Positions 1 to 14,605 of a DNA stretch of 34,835 nt are shown here, piece by piece; within the stretch, counting starts at the first letter, position 1, and each line of letters starts with the position of its first letter. This DNA is from Alphaproteobacteria bacterium (lineage in GTDB: Bacteria; Pseudomonadota; Alphaproteobacteria; Micavibrionales; Micavibrionaceae). The position numbers were made by a program, and so were the translations under genes. The notes beneath the pieces were generated by a model. That model was not told the origin of the DNA. It saw only the letters and a list, made by a program, of their open reading frames with translations, and did not search any database. Where the stretch lies: NCBI GenBank assembly GCA_016125135.1, contig WGMJ01000007.1, positions 1 through 34,835 of the forward strand. The letters run 5' to 3'.

Positions 1-389
1 CCATAGTGCTTGGCGGTGAGCAGGCGGGGCATTTGATATTGGGTGATTACGCAACAACGGGTGACGGGCTTTTGGCCGCGCTTCATGTCATCCGCTTCTG
101 GCGCGAGAGTGGCAAAAAAGCCAGCGCGTTTTTAAATGTATTCCAGCCCTTCCCGCAGGTGCTGAAAAATGTGCGTTTCAGCGGTGAGTCGCCTTTGCAA
201 AAAGATGTTGTAAAAGAAGCCATTAAAAACGGTGAAACAAAATTAAAAACAACAGGTCGTTTGCTCGTGCGTGCCTCTGGCACCGAGCCACTCATCCGCG
301 TGATGGCCGAAGGGCGTGATTTGCAGTTTATTACAAACGTCGTTGATGAAATTTGTGGCGAGATAGAAAAATACGGAAAGGCTTCATAA
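1..389 (+). CDS. glmM: Phosphoglucosamine mutase, C-terminal part (5' truncated by window edge)
   Basis: This is the last ~129 codons of an enzyme that converts glucosamine-6-phosphate to glucosamine-1-phosphate, the step before UDP-GlcNAc and hence peptidoglycan and lipid A synthesis, in the cytoplasm. The open frame enters from the left edge (first full codon at position 3). It begins in the conserved LGGEQAGH loop (substrate specificity loop of the alpha-D-phosphohexomutase family) followed by [13 protein letters not shown]. Near the end it has [16 protein letters not shown], the phosphate-binding loop of domain 4. These segments fit GlmM better than phosphomannomutase/phosphoglucomutase. 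The stop is one base before the purA start, so the two are probably co-transcribed. The active-site serine lies outside the window. Confidence 0.93.
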
Positions 390-390
390 C

Positions 391-1680
391 ATGGCAAATG
401 CAGCAGTCGTTGGCGCGCAATGGGGCGATGAAGGCAAGGGAAAAATTGTAGACTGGCTGGCTGCACGCGCTGACCTTGTTGTGCGTTTTCAGGGCGGGCA
501 CAATGCGGGCCATACATTGGTCGTGGGCGACAAGGATTACAAATTGCGTTTGCTGCCTTCTGGTATTGTGCGCGGTAAACACGCTTTGATTGGTAATGGC
601 GTGGTCATAGATCCTTTTGCGCTGCTTGCCGAGATTGATGAAATGGTAAGCAAGGGACTTACAATTACGCCTAACAATTTGAAGATTGCCGAGAACGCAC
701 ATCTTATTCTCTCTGTTCATGCGGCGGTTGATCAGGCGTTGGAAATAGCCAAGGGTGCAAACAAAATAGGCACAACGGGCCGTGGCATCGGCCCTGCCTA
801 TGAAGACAAGGTTGGCCGACGCGGTATTCGTGTGTGTGACCTTGCGTTTCCGGACACACTGAAAGATCAGTTGGAGAGGTTGCTAAGCCATCATAACCCG
901 CAATTGAAGCGCTATGGTGTGGAAGAGATAGCGCTTGATAAGTTGCTGGCATCACTGCTTGAAATTGCGCCGCGTATATTGGCGCATGCTGTGCCTGCAT
1001 GGAAAATCCTGGATGAAGCAAAAAATAAAAAACAGAATATTCTTTTTGAAGGGGCGCAAGGGTTTTTACTGGATATTGACCATGGTACCTATCCGTATGT
1101 GACATCATCGAACACATCTGTAGGGCAGGGTGCGGCAGGCTCGGGTGCGGGACCACAAGCCGTAGGTTATGTACTAGGCTTGGCAAAAGCTTATACAACG
1201 CGCGTTGGTGCTGGGCCTTTCCCGACGGAGCTCTTTGACGCGGTTGGCGAAGAGATAGGCCGTAAAGGACACGAGTTTGGGACCAATACAGGGCGCAAGC
1301 GCCGTTGCGGTTGGTTTGATGCGGTGCTGGTACGGCAGGCCTCTAAAATAAGCGGTATGAACGGCATTGCGCTTACGAAGCTTGATGTACTTGACGGGTT
1401 TAAGGAGCTTAAGATTTGCACCGCCTATGAATTAAACGGGCAGAAGCTTGATTATCTTCCGGCGGCCCCAGCTGTGCAGGCGGCTCTCACGCCGGTTTAC
1501 GAGACTATGCCGGGCTGGAGCGGAACAACACGTGGCGTTCGAAAAACAGAAGATTTGCCGCAAGAGGCAAAAAACTATGTCAAGCGGCTGGAGGCACTCA
1601 TTGAAACACCAATAAGTGTTCTTTCAACAAGTCCGGAGCGGGAAGATACCATATTACTCCACGACCCCTTTGCGGGATAA
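391..1680 (+). CDS. purA: Adenylosuccinate synthetase
   Basis: This enzyme joins IMP and aspartate using GTP to make adenylosuccinate, the first committed step of AMP synthesis. At 429 residues it has the usual family length. The N-terminal GTP-binding loop [10 protein letters not shown] (about residues 12-21) contains the catalytic Asp, and GGHNAGHT follows at about 36-43 with the catalytic His. Further family blocks are [14 protein letters not shown], a [14 protein letters not shown] segment, [13 protein letters not shown] and the guanine-recognising TKLDVLD near residue 330. The ATG lies one base after the glmM stop, pointing to translational coupling. The next gene starts 24 bases after the stop with no visible terminator, so transcription could run on into the pseudokinase gene. 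Confidence 0.97.
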
Positions 1681-1704
1681 GGCTTTTGCAGTAGAATCAG
1701 GGGT

Positions 1705-3840
1705 ATGGCCGATGCTCCGCCACAGCCGGACGATCCTTCTGCGTCCAACGAACAGCCGAAAGATGTAAAACAGCCCGCCGCAGAGTCCGGCGATAAAGCG
1801 GCTGAAAAACTTGCAGCCTCATGGGATGGCGAGCGTATATTCCTGAAGGGCGAAATAGAAATTTTTCCTGACCAGCGTTTGCCGGAGTATGATCAGCGCA
1901 CAATAAAGGCATATCGGGCGCGCAGCAAAAACGATGAGAATTGCTATGCGTTGCTTTGTGATAGAAAGCTTTTGCCGCGTGTAGGGGCTGCTGCAAAATA
2001 CCACTCTATTCTCAACCCGAATCTTGCGCGGCTTGTTGCATCCGGTGTTGTTGACTGGCTGCCAGAGAAAAAGCAGATATATGCTTTTATTTACGAGAAC
2101 CACGGTGGCCGTAAACTCACAAAACTTATCGAGAATGTCAGCCTGGGGTGGAAGGCTGAAACTGTTATCAGCACGATTATAAAGCCGCTCGCTTATGTGC
2201 TTGATGATTTGCGTAACGTTGACCTTGTGCATGGCTCTATCCGTCCGGATAATATTTATATTGTGGGTGAAGGAGCGTCTGCCAAGGCTATTCTAGGTGA
2301 GTGTCTGGCATTGCCGTTCTCGTATGCAACGCCTGCGGCACTAGAGCCAGTGAATAGGGGGGTTGCCCAGCCTATAGCGCGCGGGTTGGGGTCGTTCGAT
2401 GATGATCTCTACCATTTCGGTGCCACAATTGCCTGTATATTGCGTAGTAACGACCCGATGACAGGGCGGATGCCGGCGGAGATTACCGAATACAAAGTCG
2501 AGCATGGCAGCTTTCAGAGTTTTATCGGGCGCGAGCGGATTGTTGGAAATATTCTAGAACTTTTACGCGGCCTTTTGCAGGATGATGTCAGGCAGAGATG
2601 GAACCTCGAGGATTTGTTGGCATGGCTGCAAGGAACACGGATTAACCCCAAGCAGCAGGCTGCCGGTGTGCGTGCCAAGGCATCGCGTCCGCTTGATTTC
2701 AACCATAAAAAATTTATGCGCCCGCAATTGCTTGCGCTTGAAATCGCTAACCACCCGCTCTCTGTGCCTGCGCTTGTAACGTCCGGCGATCTCAAACAAT
2801 GGCTGAATCGTTCCTTGCAGGATACGCCTGTTGAAAAGCAGGTTGATGAAGTTGTACTTTCCTTGGGTGAATCCATAGGTGCAAGCAACTACGCGCCGAA
2901 GCTCGCCCTCAGGTTGGCAGTAGCGCTTAGCCCCGAGCTGCCTATTATCTATAAGGGTTTGAAGTTTTATCCTGATGGTTTTGCCAATGCCTTTGTCGAG
3001 GCTGTAGCGGCTGGTAAAGACCTGACAACCTATGCCGAGATTATGCAGGAGCAGGCGGTTCTTTACTGGATCAATCATGCGGACGTCACGAAAATGGATG
3101 TTAACACTCTGATCCACGGGTTTGATAACGCGAAAAATTTCCTGAAGCATCAGATGATCGGTTACGGGCTGGAGCGCTGCATTTACGTTTTGTCCGCCGA
3201 TGCACCATGTCTGAGCGATAAGTTAAGAGATTACTATGTCAGAACACCGGAAGATCTGTTTATGGCACTCAACCATATGGCAGAACATGGCGACAGGCCC
3301 GACATGCCTTATGACCGGCATATAGCCGCATTTTTGTCGGTGCGTGATCGCAAGGTCATTGACAATTATCTGGCAGATATTGCATCAGGCGAACGTCATC
3401 GCTACGTGATTGGTGTTTTAAAATCACTCGCGTTGATCCAGACAAGGGCTAAATTGCCGGAGGCGCCTGCGCTTTCAAGCTGGATGGTTGACTTTGTAAA
3501 ACCAGCTATCGGCCGCTTCCATGACAAGGAACTGAAAACAAGGCTTGCCGACAAGCTCGAGCGCGTAAGAAACAAAGGTGATATGAGCAAGGTTTTGGCC
3601 GTATTTGAAGAGTCGAACATTGCGCAGAATGATTACCGTGGATTTTATATTGCGCTACGCGACTACCTCCGCCTGAAAAACGAAATTTTCATGCTTCAGG
3701 GTAAGCTTGATCATGAAAAAGATTTCGGTATGGATGCAGGCCGCCAGTATGCAGCAGTGATTTCGGGCGCGATTGCAATTTTACTGGTGCTGGCCTATGC
3801 GGCACTTCACTTCGGCAATGGGTTCACAATTGTAGGTTAA
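1705..3840 (+). CDS. Tail-anchored protein-kinase-like protein, predicted pseudokinase
   Basis: 711 residues. Residues 1-40 are acidic and Pro/Ala/Lys-rich and probably disordered. Residues ~55-312 look like a Ser/Thr kinase fold: the catalytic-loop position reads HGSIRPDN (176-183) where active kinases have HRDxKPxN, an FDDDLYHFGATI segment (231-242) matches the helix-F DxYxLG block, and QDDVRQRW (292-299) matches the final DPxxRP helix. The catalytic Asp is Ser, the DFG region reads LGEC (197-200), and the VAIK-like strand reads YALLC (81-85) without an obvious Lys. I therefore infer that it does not phosphorylate by the standard mechanism. Residues ~330-670 are mostly helical and unrecognised. 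One hydrophobic helix (about 682-703) ends the protein, so the body should face the cytoplasm. A GGGG-rich Shine-Dalgarno sits unusually close to the ATG. The stop is one base before the next gene. Function unknown. Confidence 0.72.
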   Translation: MADAPPQPDDPSASNEQPKDVKQPAAESGDKAAEKLAASWDGERIFLKGEIEIFPDQRLPEYDQRTIKAYRARSKNDENCYALLCDRKLLPRVGAAAKYHSILNPNLARLVASGVVDWLPEKKQIYAFIYENHGGRKLTKLIENVSLGWKAETVISTIIKPLAYVLDDLRNVDLVHGSIRPDNIYIVGEGASAKAILGECLALPFSYATPAALEPVNRGVAQPIARGLGSFDDDLYHFGATIACILRSNDPMTGRMPAEITEYKVEHGSFQSFIGRERIVGNILELLRGLLQDDVRQRWNLEDLLAWLQGTRINPKQQAAGVRAKASRPLDFNHKKFMRPQLLALEIANHPLSVPALVTSGDLKQWLNRSLQDTPVEKQVDEVVLSLGESIGASNYAPKLALRLAVALSPELPIIYKGLKFYPDGFANAFVEAVAAGKDLTTYAEIMQEQAVLYWINHADVTKMDVNTLIHGFDNAKNFLKHQMIGYGLERCIYVLSADAPCLSDKLRDYYVRTPEDLFMALNHMAEHGDRPDMPYDRHIAAFLSVRDRKVIDNYLADIASGERHRYVIGVLKSLALIQTRAKLPEAPALSSWMVDFVKPAIGRFHDKELKTRLADKLERVRNKGDMSKVLAVFEESNIAQNDYRGFYIALRDYLRLKNEIFMLQGKLDHEKDFGMDAGRQYAAVISGAIAILLVLAYAALHFGNGFTIVG

Positions 3841-3841
3841 T

Positions 3842-4369
3842 ATGGCGAAAAAAGAGAAAGCGGCAAAGGTAACTAAAGCAAAAAGGCGCAGTAACAAACT
3901 GAGCTGGAAAGGGCAGCTATTACTTGTTGTTTCAATAATAAGTGCCGCAGTAATGCTGCCGATAACGATTCTATTGTTTGTAGGTATGATGCCGACTTTG
4001 GCCGCTAGTTTTATGGATCGCTCACGCGACAAAATGAAAGTCTTTACCGTGGGGTCTTTGAATTTTGCAACCTGCTTTCCGTTCGTTCTCGATATTTCTA
4101 CAGGCGGGTTTAAAAGTGATCAGGCAATAAACCTGATTACCGATGCACAAAATATCATCATTATGTTCTCGGGGGCGGTTGCGGGGTATTTGCTGGAGTG
4201 GGCGACTGTCGGTGTTGTGGCCACAATTGTTATCGAGCAGGCGCGCGGGAAGATAAAATCTATGCGAAACACACAAGAGGAGCTTGTCGAACGCTGGGGT
4301 AAAGAAGTGCGTGGCGATATTCCCCTTGATTCTCAAGGGTTTGCTATTGAATTGCCCGAGCAATCTTAA
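3842..4369 (+). CDS. Small membrane protein of unknown function, partner of the pseudokinase gene
   Basis: 175 residues, not recognised. The first ~20 residues are strongly basic (Lys/Arg-rich), then comes a long hydrophobic stretch (about 24-56) that could be one long or two short membrane helices. A further hydrophobic pair lies at about residues 75-85 and 105-130 (around GAVAGYLLEW). The C-terminal ~45 residues are charged and hydrophilic. The basic N-terminus suggests it stays in the cytoplasm. The ATG follows the pseudokinase stop by a single base (TAA-T-ATG), so the two are very likely co-translated. The first pseudopilin gene begins 129 bases downstream. No signal peptide cleavage site or known motif is visible. 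A membrane partner for the tail-anchored pseudokinase is an inference from coupling only. Confidence 0.75.
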   Translation: MAKKEKAAKVTKAKRRSNKLSWKGQLLLVVSIISAAVMLPITILLFVGMMPTLAASFMDRSRDKMKVFTVGSLNFATCFPFVLDISTGGFKSDQAINLITDAQNIIIMFSGAVAGYLLEWATVGVVATIVIEQARGKIKSMRNTQEELVERWGKEVRGDIPLDSQGFAIELPEQS

Positions 4370-4498
4370 GGGTTTTTTCAGGTTTTTCAGCGATAATAGT
4401 AAATGGAACGCGCAGTTTTTTGCGTGTTTTTTTGTGCCTGAAAAAAAGAAAAAGGTTGAGATAAATTCTCCCATAATTTTAGCGGGTTAGGTGGTTTT

Positions 4499-5029
4499 TT
4501 GGGGTTCTGGAAAGCTTATTTTCGCGAGAAAAAAGCGGCGACGGCGGTCGAGTTTTCGCTGGTGGCCTTACCGCTCATTTATCTGCTGATTGGCATACTG
4601 GAAATTTCACTTTTCTTTGCCACATCAAGTGTTATTCACGGGGCATCTTCACAGGCGGCGCGGTTGATTAAAACAGGGCAGCTGCAGCAAGGCGGTGGTG
4701 ATGCCGAGCAGATATTCAGTGATGCGCTTTGTGCGAATGCGGATTTCATGGTGCGGTGTGGCGACATACGTTTTGAAGTTGTCCCACTCTCTGACGGGTT
4801 TTCGTCCTTTGCTGACATGCCAGCTGAATATGATAGTGATGGCAATTTTACGCCACGTCCATTTGATGCAGGCGGTGTAAATGATGTTATTATGGTGCGG
4901 TCGGTGTATCCCTACCATTTTGTGACACCGCTTCTTTCTGTCTTTATGACGGGGGCACGGAATAGCGTTAAAACGATTATGGCGACGGTCATTTTCCAGA
5001 CAGAACCATATGATTTTTCGGATAGCTAG
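4499..5029 (+). CDS. tadE: TadE-like pseudopilin
   Basis: 176 residues. It has the TadE layout: a short basic N-terminus, then KAATAVEFSLVALPLIYLL, a single hydrophobic helix, then a periplasmic domain. The Glu at the fifth position of the mature helix is kept, while the residue before the presumed cleavage point is Ala rather than Gly. TadE-family proteins are minor pseudopilins of the Tad pilus, processed by the prepilin peptidase. The frame is open back to a stop at 4457-4459 but contains no ATG or GTG before codon ~80, so TTG at 4499 is the only conventional start that keeps the membrane helix. A GGTGG sequence lies about five bases upstream as a weak ribosome-binding site. The next gene starts one base after the stop. 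Confidence 0.85.
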   Translation: MGFWKAYFREKKAATAVEFSLVALPLIYLLIGILEISLFFATSSVIHGASSQAARLIKTGQLQQGGGDAEQIFSDALCANADFMVRCGDIRFEVVPLSDGFSSFADMPAEYDSDGNFTPRPFDAGGVNDVIMVRSVYPYHFVTPLLSVFMTGARNSVKTIMATVIFQTEPYDFSDS

Positions 5030-5030
5030 A

Positions 5031-5564
5031 ATGAAGAGAATAATTAAGCGTTGGCAAAACTATAAAAATTCCGCCAGCGGAACAGCTTTGGTGGAAGCGG
5101 CTTTGCTTATACCTGTAATGCTAACGTTACTTATGGGGGCGGTTGATATCGGAACGGGGATTGTGCTTTCACAACGGACTGTGAGTGCGTCGCAAACGGG
5201 GGCTGACCTGATGGCACGAAACGTTGAAGTGGGCGACTCGGAGATCGAGAATATTATCGACGGGGCAGAGCTTGTTTTCGAGCCTTATGCTGCGGGTGCT
5301 GCTTTTGGCATTGATATTGTGAGCGTGCAGTTTAACGCCTCGGGAAACGCCAATGTTGTGTGTCGGGAAACCAGAAATATGTCGCCTAATGATGAAGCTA
5401 TTGAAAGTGTTGATGGATTAGGTACAGCGGGGGAAGGCATGGTGATTGTCACGGTCCAGTATCAGTATGAACCATATTTTGCGAGTATATTTATTCCTGA
5501 TTTTACATTCAGGGAGGTCGCATTTACACGGGGAAGGCGCAGTGCTGTTGTGAACTGCGTATAG
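5031..5564 (+). CDS. Second TadE/TadF-like pseudopilin
   Basis: 177 residues, counted from the ATG at 5031 (MKRIIKRW), one base after the upstream stop; an in-frame upstream ATG at 5010 would overlap the previous gene and adds no recognisable sequence. The N-terminus is basic, then SASGTALVEAALLIPVMLTLL gives a type IV-pilin-like cleavage site (Gly before, Glu at mature position five) and one membrane helix. The remaining ~130 residues would be periplasmic, with two Cys (in NVVCRE and at the extreme C-terminus, VVNCV) that could form a disulfide. It belongs with the TadE/TadF minor pseudopilins needed for Tad pilus assembly; I cannot tell TadE from TadF by sequence alone. The TadG gene follows after three bases. 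Confidence 0.85.
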   Translation: MKRIIKRWQNYKNSASGTALVEAALLIPVMLTLLMGAVDIGTGIVLSQRTVSASQTGADLMARNVEVGDSEIENIIDGAELVFEPYAAGAAFGIDIVSVQFNASGNANVVCRETRNMSPNDEAIESVDGLGTAGEGMVIVTVQYQYEPYFASIFIPDFTFREVAFTRGRRSAVVNCV

Positions 5565-5567
5565 GGT

Positions 5568-6902
5568 ATGAAGAAGCGCGTAACACATTTTTTAAAATCA
5601 ACCGTTGCTGCATCGGCAATTGCTTTTGCGTTGCTCATCCCTGTTGTTGTGGGCGGCGCTGGTATGGCGGTTGATGTCGCAACAGCGTATCTTGTGCAAG
5701 CACGGCTTTCGCATGCGCTGGATGCGGCTGCGCTTGCAGGGGGGGCTGCGCAGGCGCATGGCGAGGGGTTGCAGGAGGCTGTTGAGCGGTTCTTTAACAA
5801 AAATTACCCACCTGAAAAAATAGGCGCAACGTATGATTTATCAGTGGCAGAAGTGAATGAGCGTATTGAAGTGTCGGGCCGAGCCTATTTTAACACGGCC
5901 TTTATGCGTTTTCTCGGGATAGACCGGCTGAATGTGCATGCAAGCTCGCAGGTTACAAAGCCAACGCGTAATATCGAGTTGGCAATGGTACTTGACGTGA
6001 CGGGGTCTATGTCGGGGAGTCGTATTTCCGAGTTGCGCGCAGCCGCGAATGATCTTGTTGATATTATTGTGCAGGACAGCCAAACGCCGGCTTATTCTAA
6101 AATCGCTATTGTGCCCTATTCTATGGGTGTAAATGTAGGTACCTATGCAACACAAGTGCGCGGTAGTTATACAAATGGTTCAACCTGTACCTCACCCGGG
6201 TGCCAATATTACAGGTTCCGTAACCCGAGCGGTGACCAGAGAACACTCCAGATCAGCAGCTGTGTATCGGAACGTTCGGGCGCAGAAGCTTATACAGATG
6301 CGCCGCCAACAGACGGGCTGATCGGGCGGAACTATGCCAGCTCAGGCAACCCGTGTTTGACAAACCGTATTGTTCCTCTCACTAGCAACAAAACAACGCT
6401 GCATAACAGTATTAATAATCTGGTCGCAGCAGGCTCTACGGCTGGGCATATCGGGACAGCATGGGGCTGGTATATGGTATCGCCCAATTTTGGCTATTTG
6501 TGGGCGGATAATGAAAGCAGACCAGCGCCCTATGGCGAAGAAGATCTGGTCAAGGTTGTGGTGTTGATGACAGACGGGGATTATAATACGGCTTATTGCC
6601 GCGGTGTTATTGCGCAGGATTCAGGCACGGGGAGTGGTTCAAACACGGACAAAATAAATTGTAATGCAACAAACGGTAGCCCGTTCTCTCAGGCACAACA
6701 GCTTTGCACCGCAATGAAAGATGCGGGCGTTATTGTTTATACAGTCGGGTTTGATGTTGCGAACTTGCAAGGCGCAAGAGACGTTATGGCGAACTGCGCA
6801 ACTGATGCAAACCATGCCTATTTCGCGGATGACGGTGACGAGCTGCAGCAAGCCTTCCGTGATATTGCACGGAATGTTTTATCCATTTATCTATCACGCT
6901 AA
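5568..6902 (+). CDS. tadG: TadG-like pilus protein with von Willebrand A-type domain
   Basis: 444 residues. The N-terminus has a Tad-type membrane helix (STVAASAIAFALLIPVVVGG) with Ala where pilins have the conserved Glu, followed by a DVATAYLVQARLSHALDAAAL segment typical of TadG. Residues ~137-435 form a von Willebrand A-like region: a MIDAS-type DVTGSMSGSR motif around residue 142 and LMTDGDYNT near residue 330, with a large Cys-containing insertion between them. TadG proteins are envelope components of Tad pili, and the vWA part is thought to bind partners through a metal ion. The ATG is three bases after the preceding stop. This is the last gene of the + strand arm; it faces tadC on the - strand 51 bases away. 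There is no clear terminator in that gap. Confidence 0.9.
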   Translation: MKKRVTHFLKSTVAASAIAFALLIPVVVGGAGMAVDVATAYLVQARLSHALDAAALAGGAAQAHGEGLQEAVERFFNKNYPPEKIGATYDLSVAEVNERIEVSGRAYFNTAFMRFLGIDRLNVHASSQVTKPTRNIELAMVLDVTGSMSGSRISELRAAANDLVDIIVQDSQTPAYSKIAIVPYSMGVNVGTYATQVRGSYTNGSTCTSPGCQYYRFRNPSGDQRTLQISSCVSERSGAEAYTDAPPTDGLIGRNYASSGNPCLTNRIVPLTSNKTTLHNSINNLVAAGSTAGHIGTAWGWYMVSPNFGYLWADNESRPAPYGEEDLVKVVVLMTDGDYNTAYCRGVIAQDSGTGSGSNTDKINCNATNGSPFSQAQQLCTAMKDAGVIVYTVGFDVANLQGARDVMANCATDANHAYFADDGDELQQAFRDIARNVLSIYLSR

Positions 6903-6913
6903 GGGGGAGCATA

Positions 6914-7042
6914 ATGAAGACGATAATACGCTGTGGACGGGAAAACTTTGTCCTTATTGGGCCTGCGTTGCCTGAAGGATCGCAGGGCCGAGAATTACCA
7001 CGAACAAGGCCGGCAGGAAGAATAATATCATTGGTACAGTAA
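6914..7042 (+). other. Doubtful 42-codon ORF with a strong ribosome-binding site, at the convergence point
   Basis: An AAGGGGGAG sequence sits five bases before an ATG, 11 bases after the tadG stop. The frame (starting MKTIIRCGRENF) runs 42 codons and overlaps the 3' end of tadC antisense by 89 bases. The peptide has no hydrophobic helix or recognisable motif. It may be the stump of a former downstream gene of the tadE-G arm cut off by a rearrangement, or chance. I do not claim it is expressed. Confidence 0.15.
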
Positions 7043-13773: not shown

Positions 13774-14605
13774 TACGCACCCCATCTTGTGAGAAAATTC
13801 TAACGGTACGGCTATCGGCCGAGCCACGTTTCTTAAGTTCTGTAACCCTGTTCAGTGTCGGGCTGGTTTCAACATCTGTTGTGAGGGGCGGTACAAGGCT
13901 TGTTATCGCTTCTTTATCGCCAACGGGGCGCAGTGCAAGGCTTAGTTCACCAAGTGATGTTGCAAGCGCAAGTTTCTCGGCTTCTTTTGGTGTTACCTGC
14001 AGCGTTACTGTTTTTGCAATTTTTGCGTTTGTGTCTTCTTTACGGGCTGTCTGGTCAATGGCCAGCACCATGATGTTCTCGAGAATTGTTTCACTGGTGA
14101 ATTTATTGACGAATGTTTGAACAGAATTATTTTGTGAAACACCGTCAACACGCAGCTGATGGGTAAGGATGATATCAACATAATCACCGGGTGATATAAA
14201 GCCACCTACCATTTTCTCGGCGGCGGTTTTAATAGCAACGGCGCGCATGCCGTTTTCCATGCGTGTTGCTAACGGGTTGCCCTGACCACTTGAAATAAAA
14301 GCGCTACGTGTAATGGGCTCGCCCATAGCAACATCACGTTTCAGCCGACCAGTAGCGGCATCAAAAGCTTCCTGATCTTTCTGCTGGATAATAGAGCCGG
14401 GAATAATATTCTTTTGTGACCATTGTTTCCATTCAACATCTTCGGGCTTCAAGTCTTTGCCCGCGACAAGATCTGCTGTTGCTACAAGAATATTGGCGCT
14501 GGCTTCTTTTTTGCCCGCGCTTTTTATAGCAGCACTTACCAGCATGGCTACAAGAAGTGCCACGGCTAGTCCGCCACCAATAACGATCATCATGTTTCTG
14601 TTCAT
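13757..14605 (-). CDS. cpaB: CpaB/RcpC, periplasmic Tad pilus protein with SAF domain
   Basis: 282 residues. One N-terminal membrane helix (residues ~5-27) anchors it, followed by a SAF-type domain at ~38-100 (ILVATADLVAGKDLKPEDVEW; a VAMGEPITRSAFI segment) and the RcpC/CpaB domain (~115-240; AVAIKTAAEKMVGGFISPGD, YVDIILTHQL, TVTLQVTPKEAEKLALA). CpaB proteins bridge the inner-membrane machine and the secretin, possibly through peptidoglycan. The gene begins 105 bases after the cpaA stop, the largest gap within the assembly-gene part of this arm. The Shine-Dalgarno is probably GGGGA nine bases before the ATG. It overlaps cpaC by 17 bases. Confidence 0.94.
   Translation of the reverse strand: MNRNMMIVIGGGLAVALLVAMLVSAAIKSAGKKEASANILVATADLVAGKDLKPEDVEWKQWSQKNIIPGSIIQQKDQEAFDAATGRLKRDVAMGEPITRSAFISSGQGNPLATRMENGMRAVAIKTAAEKMVGGFISPGDYVDIILTHQLRVDGVSQNNSVQTFVNKFTSETILENIMVLAIDQTARKEDTNAKIAKTVTLQVTPKEAEKLALATSLGELSLALRPVGDKEAITSLVPPLTTDVETSPTLNRVTELKKRGSADSRTVRIFSQDGVRNANIR

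Follow-up and report, generated by a model that had tools for sequence, protein, structure and literature searches.

A family of membrane-anchored pseudokinases in Alphaproteobacteria and its likely partner, a downstream membrane protein

Membrane pseudokinases as hubs and the layout of the present locus

Bacterial pseudokinases are largely unexplored experimentally, and the seven annotated families counted in one review are of unknown function (PMC12599244). Precedents for membrane pseudokinases acting as hubs are EssB/YukC and TraF (PMC12599244, PMC10765036, PMC13037476). The pseudokinase domain of EssB/YukC, a protein of type VIIb secretion, is reported to bind the FHA domains of EssC, and its membrane segment to contact EsaA (PMC10765036, PMC12599244); EssB is further described as a core T7SSb component of Bacillota which dimerises via an extracytoplasmic C-terminal domain (PMC10765036). 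TraF, from the type IV secretion system of plasmid pIP501, is likewise a membrane pseudokinase with a proposed role in complex assembly, but it has two soluble domains, one on either side of the membrane, and belongs to a Gram-positive conjugation system (PMC13037476).

The protein described here is encoded in the window, by which is meant the whole stretch of DNA that was analysed (34,835 nucleotides), by an open reading frame on the plus strand at 1705-3840 which starts with ATG 24 nt past purA and yields a product of 711 aa. Like EssB/YukC, it is a pseudokinase with three degraded motifs and one membrane helix, and it would be a non-catalytic protein that meets membrane proteins. It differs from EssB in that a helical domain precedes the membrane helix, in that only about 1-9 residues follow the core of the tail, and in its occurrence in Alphaproteobacteria. 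Membership of the EssB/YukC family is rejected because of this topology: an extracytoplasmic domain is missing, and the number of residues past the hydrophobic core of the tail has a median of 6 across the family (10-90%: 1-9), so there is no domain beyond the membrane helix. By analogy, EssB/YukC and TraF would be the nearest mechanistic precedents. The features of the locus are as follows.

391-1680, plus strand: purA, the upstream neighbour, regarded as lying outside the module
1705-3840, plus strand: pseudokinase gene, 711 aa, with a kinase-like domain, a helical C-terminal domain and a C-terminal membrane helix
1828-2640, plus strand: kinase-fold domain, residues 42-312, from VIA-align and profile matches
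1945-1959, plus strand: beta-3 strand YALLC, residues 81-85, at the place of VAxK; no member of 152 has Lys at position 84
2230-2253, plus strand: remnant of the catalytic loop, HGSIRPDN, residues 176-183; a single member of 152 has Asp at position 178
2293-2304, plus strand: remnant at the DFG position, LGEC, residues 197-200; LGEC or LGDC in 98 of 152
2656-3717, plus strand: C-terminal helical domain, residues 318-671 (354 residues), from the model, conservation and Pfam and PDB searches
3730-3813, plus strand: C-terminal membrane helix, residues 676-703, from the model and the hydrophobicity of members
3842-4369, plus strand: partner gene, 175 aa, with 3-4 hydrophobic segments, starting 1 nt past the pseudokinase stop
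4408-4425, plus strand: putative intrinsic terminator, on weak evidence, after the module and ahead of the first TadE gene

Kinase fold and loss of the catalytic residues

An AlphaFold2 model of the 711-aa protein (mean pLDDT 88.5) matches kinases over residues 42-312, so that the protein-kinase fold of this region is supported by prediction and not by experiment. In VIA-align comparisons the region aligns with WNK3 (5o21_A) over 248 residues at 2.6 A, with a Z of 22.9, and structure comparison of the predicted model with the TYK2 pseudokinase gives a Z of 21.6. Pfam finds nothing above cut-off in the single sequence of 711 aa. A profile of 44 members (alignment A1, 44 of 50 homologues) picks out titin kinase and calcium-dependent kinases among PDB entries, with a best E of 3.6e-8, the best 60 of the 296 sequences found up to E 1 having been inspected; in the alignment to titin kinase, the HGxIRPxN of the family falls opposite HFDIRPEN and its LGE opposite EFG. 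An earlier note, which had only the letters of the sequence to go on, had claimed a Ser/Thr kinase fold followed by a helical region of about 350 residues and a tail anchor, and had staked the claim on what a structure prediction would give. The predicted structure is indeed a kinase fold, the helical region and the membrane helix are present at about residues 318-671 and at 676-703, and the motifs that the note had named are found at residues 176-183 (HGSIRPDN), 197-200 (LGEC), 233-239 (the helix-F block DDLYHFG) and 297-299 (QRW).

The catalytic residues were evaluated in 152 distinct aligned members, each an open reading frame of at least 550 aa, which remained of 182 after 30 had been dropped because their last 500 residues were identical to those of another. 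The beta-3 Lys is absent at position 84 from every member (in two, a Lys stands two residues further along), the catalytic Asp is present at position 178 in one, and the Asp of DFG is present at position 197 in none and at 198, shifted by one, in two; the common substitute for DFG is LG[ED]C (LGEC in 51 members, LGDC in 47). The GxGxxG loop is found in 0 of 152. Even if the alignment is allowed to slip by a few residues, none of the 152 proteins combines two of the three elements of the triad, and the homologues thus do not carry a Lys/Asp/Asp triad elsewhere, which was the other outcome that the earlier note had named as fatal to its reading. The replacement of the catalytic Asp by Ser and of DFG by LGEC and the missing strand-3 Lys, which the note had read from one protein, belong to degraded motifs common to all 152, and in the aligned sequences the loss of the triad is a trait of the whole family. 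The protein is a pseudokinase by the definition used for sequences, a kinase fold in which at least one residue of the triad is missing. The sole member with Asp at 178 (L139:1486-3600, minus strand, HGDIRPTN) is still without the beta-3 Lys and DFG.

The further statement of the note that all catalytic residues are lacking goes too far: the triad and the Gly loop are gone, but His176 is kept in 139 of 152 members (Cys in 12, Tyr in 1, Gly never) and Asn183, an Asn of the Mg-binding type, in 146. Residues of the fold are also kept, namely D234 (151 of 152), which we take to be the helix-F Asp, and R298 (152 of 152) and E214 (133 of 152), presumably the Arg and the APE Glu of a pair. Measured over the 121 rows below 62% identity, conservation amounts to 2.33 bits in the catalytic loop, 2.15 in the activation segment, 2.29 in helix F and 2.10 in helices G-I, and it is lower, at 1.52 bits, in the N-lobe. 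A C-lobe more conserved than the N-lobe is the pattern expected of a binding surface that has been kept. Given the loss of the triad and the Gly loop alongside a conserved C-lobe and activation segment, the likely role of the kinase domain is to bind a protein.

The protein was compared with several described families. In the GLW pseudokinases, GLW stands in the place of HRD (PMC12599244); position 176 is never Gly in the 152 members here. The DLHK pseudokinases keep the catalytic Asp and have no membrane segment, and the CP1 pseudokinases also have no membrane segment (PMC12599244); in the present family Asp 178 occurs in a single member, as noted, and the tail helix in 148 of 152. The best resemblance to a curated family is to the LanL kinase domain (NCBIfam NF038150), which 41 of the 44 members match at E <= 0.001. 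Identity as a LanL lanthionine synthetase is nevertheless rejected: residues 153-320 of the window protein score 30.8 bits against a family cut-off of 650, only the kinase region of that protein matches, and the 44 members have no LanC-type Pfam domain, or indeed any Pfam domain beyond kinase models. An identity as one of the anti-phage kinases (MkoA, PD-T4-6, MAD6) is not supported by the matches obtained; that to MkoA spans only residues 104-327, and 70-291 of the 1112 profile positions, and MAD6 matches 8 of the 44 members.

Distribution, C-terminal domain and downstream partner

A search of genome contigs with the single sequence found no relative, and a profile search of the same contigs found at least 297, of which the best 80 were taken. 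Of 95 genomes from the same family and order, the one that the window comes from included, 93 have a homologue, and this frequency, together with the degraded motifs common to the 152 distinct members, is far above chance. Among the sampled genomes of the class the pseudokinase is present in 131 of 385, or about a third (133 before two weak matches, G158 at E 7e-4 and G323 at E 2e-4, were taken off the list; G316, with 136 positions matched at E 7e-23, was retained). Because at most two candidates per genome were scored among the matches listed in this search, copy numbers of the pseudokinase are lower bounds. In a sample of the phylum 16 of 398 genomes match at a cut-off of 1e-30, and all of these belong to the same class, as do the non-matches listed; the same holds for a profile of the C-terminal domain, which matches 10 of 344 genomes. 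Named records that carry the pseudokinase include Micavibrio, Nitrospirillum, Niveispirillum and Azospirillum. By sequence comparison, the family is conserved, old and widespread in the alphaproteobacteria. The earlier note had missed how widespread the family is in the class, the membrane partner downstream and the confinement of the unrecognised fold to the C-terminal domain.

When residues 318-671 are folded alone from an alignment of 120 sequences (A2, all but one of the 121 members below 62% identity), the helical domain is predicted with a pLDDT of 96.4. Searches with this domain gave nothing at E <= 0.001 in the PDB with Foldseek (best 0.55), no match among the viral structures of BFVD (best E 0.25), no relative among PDB sequences (best E 0.024) and, in Pfam, no family common to more than 3 of the 120 members even at E 0.1. 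The best Z in VIA-align is 4.0, and the matches listed there cover mostly the last third of the domain, so a new fold is not proven. A weak possible internal repeat was seen in 2656-3717 (plus strand), consisting of a strand pair and then helices ending in a conserved Trp, with possible units at residues ~328-368 and ~411-456; an internal duplication (325-410 against 405-490) is weak by hhalign, at a probability of 19%, and is not claimed.

The hydrophobic tail exceeds the cut-off of 1.6 in 148 of 152 members, and the four exceptions are one cut by the end of its contig (L088) and three at 1.39-1.59. Another stretch also exceeds the cut-off in 18 of the 152, so that a single membrane segment is not certain in every member.

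The gene that starts directly after the pseudokinase encodes the partner, whose 3-4 hydrophobic segments are suggested by an averaged hydropathy profile. Among neighbouring open reading frames clustered by blastp, for which counts are lower bounds, the partner adjoins the pseudokinase at 140 of the 150 loci and without exception shares its strand, and the gap has a median of 9 nt to the first ATG and is at most 30 nt in 118 of at most 142; in four of the eight loci scored as partnerless despite having space for it (L162, L163, L179, L180), a profile finds the partner next door. In the 385 genomes of the class, both genes are present in 131, the pseudokinase alone in 0, the partner alone in 2 (both incomplete genomes, at 84% and 75%) and neither in 252, a co-occurrence that is uncorrected for phylogeny and was counted after a weak partner match (G098, E 8e-5 over 51 profile positions) had been taken off the list. 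Two genomes (G312, G396) have the pseudokinase and the partner inside different long contigs and still keep both; the unlinked partner lies after ychF in the former (L185:6880-7422) and, in the latter (L184:6951-7424), between xseA and an oxidoreductase gene, with folD following. In Azospirillum ramasamyi the pair stays together without purA beside it. The near-perfect co-occurrence, the adjacency and the retention of both genes when unlinked indicate that the pseudokinase and the partner are likely to form one functional unit. There are points against a strict module: copies of the partner without an adjoining pseudokinase exist, and at L160 a second copy of the pseudokinase lacks a clustered partner next to it.

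In an alignment of 54 of the 140 distinct partner sequences (A3), every sequence has P51 and W152, and almost every one has N74 and G77. No Pfam family fits the partner, and it has no relative in the PDB (best E 0.91). An EMC3/Oxa1-type insertase was considered and rejected, since one of the 54 members matches, at E 3.5e-4, amid other scattered single matches. Two genomes of one genus (G108, G240) have four partner matches and one pseudokinase match each, and the extra partner copies (L181, L182, L183, L200, L201, L202) lie in unrelated neighbourhoods; the pseudokinase was not found in the stretches around the three extra copies of G108. A histidine kinase lies upstream of one of these, and because it has no match in the sister locus of G240, nothing is inferred from it.

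Readings of function and the genomic neighbourhood

The reading that we hold, with moderate confidence, is that the dead, membrane-anchored pseudokinase serves at the inner membrane as a protein-binding scaffold or as a receptor and acts with the dedicated membrane protein encoded downstream; the role of scaffold or allosteric sensor that the earlier note had envisaged is still an inference. The soluble part of the protein would face the cytoplasm, and its membrane helix would contact the helices of the partner. The conserved region made up of the catalytic loop, the activation segment and helices F to I would form the surface on which a client or a further subunit docks, and the module would signal or assemble through binding, without phosphate transfer.

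The alternative that survives best, although we consider it unlikely, is that the work is done by the C-terminal domain, either as an enzyme or as a sensor of a small molecule acting via C502, D537, H539, Q579 and Y494, under regulation by the pseudokinase domain. All 152 members have Y494 and C502, D537 and Q579 are kept in 150 each and H539 in 149, the stretch 486-560 is itself well conserved at 1.97 bits, and W366 and D643 are likewise invariant or nearly so. The five residues resemble a ligand or active site more than what would be expected of a plain scaffold, and the confidence of the domain model, in which a known fold was not found, is high. Invariant residues can, however, be structural, and the PDB and Pfam searches found no sequence relative of known activity. 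Given these residues, the domain may sense or process a ligand. A bolder and rather doubtful combination would be an inner-membrane machine in which the dead kinase recruits regulators to a new helical fold, whose Cys/His/Asp/Gln/Tyr site senses or processes a ligand and signals to the partner; if this were true, a new type of signalling module would have been present across the class, masked by the label "serine/threonine protein kinase".

A non-canonical nucleotide reaction in the altered kinase pocket, on the models of SelO (AMPylation) and SidJ (glutamylation), appears less probable still than a working C-terminal domain. The residues on which such a reaction might draw are well kept, since in addition to H176 and N183 (139 and 146 of 152) an E or D stands at 199 in 139 members and R92 is present in 141. 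Against this, the position of the beta-3 Lys is never Lys, the Gly loop is present in no member, and no acidic residue stands at the canonical position of the DFG Asp (197); SidJ itself is reported to need repurposed ATP- and metal-binding residues (PMC12599244).

The surroundings of the locus suggest a further reading, which we regard as very improbable, in which the pseudokinase is an accessory protein of the adjoining Tad (Flp) pilus. Past 4369 there are 129 nt and then three genes, two of them TadE-like and the third encoding Tad and VWA domains. With the loci split by number and not by taxonomic record (L001-L115 against L116-L180), TadG lies downstream in 37 of the 66 loci of the window's group that have enough sequence, and TadE/TadG in 0 of 50 other loci; in the tree, all 55 loci with tad genes downstream fall within the clade of 92 members that contains the window's gene (support 1.0, midpoint root, 37 of its members being without recorded tad genes, some for lack of sequence) and none among the 60 members outside it. 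RcpC, a marker of the Tad system, occurs together with the pseudokinase in 66 genomes against 52.7 expected (odds ratio 1.9, Fisher p 0.004, uncorrected for phylogeny), but an RcpC match is absent from 65 of the 131 pseudokinase genomes. Given this absence and the confinement of the linkage to one clade, the pilus is a neighbour and not a requirement. The possible terminator also separates the pair from the tad genes, among 15 terminator-like sites in 1-7000 compared with 8.3 +/- 3.1 in shuffles. In the window, RcpC lies at 13928-14272 on the minus strand, opposite to the pseudokinase.

An active Ser/Thr kinase is highly improbable, because the intact triad is found in 0 of 152 members, even though two Azospirillum members carry the label "serine/threonine protein kinase" (their downstream gene being labelled "hypothetical protein") and Pfam detects Pkinase at E <= 0.001 in 15 of the 44. 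The finding of a dead family would correct this misleading kinase annotation of the relatives. The family was not found described in a literature search that covered titles and abstract openings and had most subscription papers outside its scope. What is new is the combination, in a membrane pseudokinase, of an unmatched domain with a partner of its own. The family is set apart from GLW, DLHK and CP1 by their described features; it occurs in cultured Nitrospirillum, Niveispirillum and Azospirillum as well, and always with the partner in the sampled genomes of the class.

The recurrent annotated neighbours of the family are purA, hisZ, the partner, tad genes, rpoH and housekeeping genes. purA precedes the pseudokinase in 67 of 92 members inside the clade of the window's gene and in 29 of 60 outside it, and since it does so on both sides it is probably an old, ancestral neighbour. 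Of the 50 loci outside the window's group, 27 have a gene for an RpoH-type sigma factor downstream, encoded on the opposite strand. Two loci (L156 of G369 and L159 of G227) contain two tandem copies of the pseudokinase with a partner gene after each, and G227 has a third pseudokinase-like copy (L186:6733-8922) adjoining a third copy of the partner.
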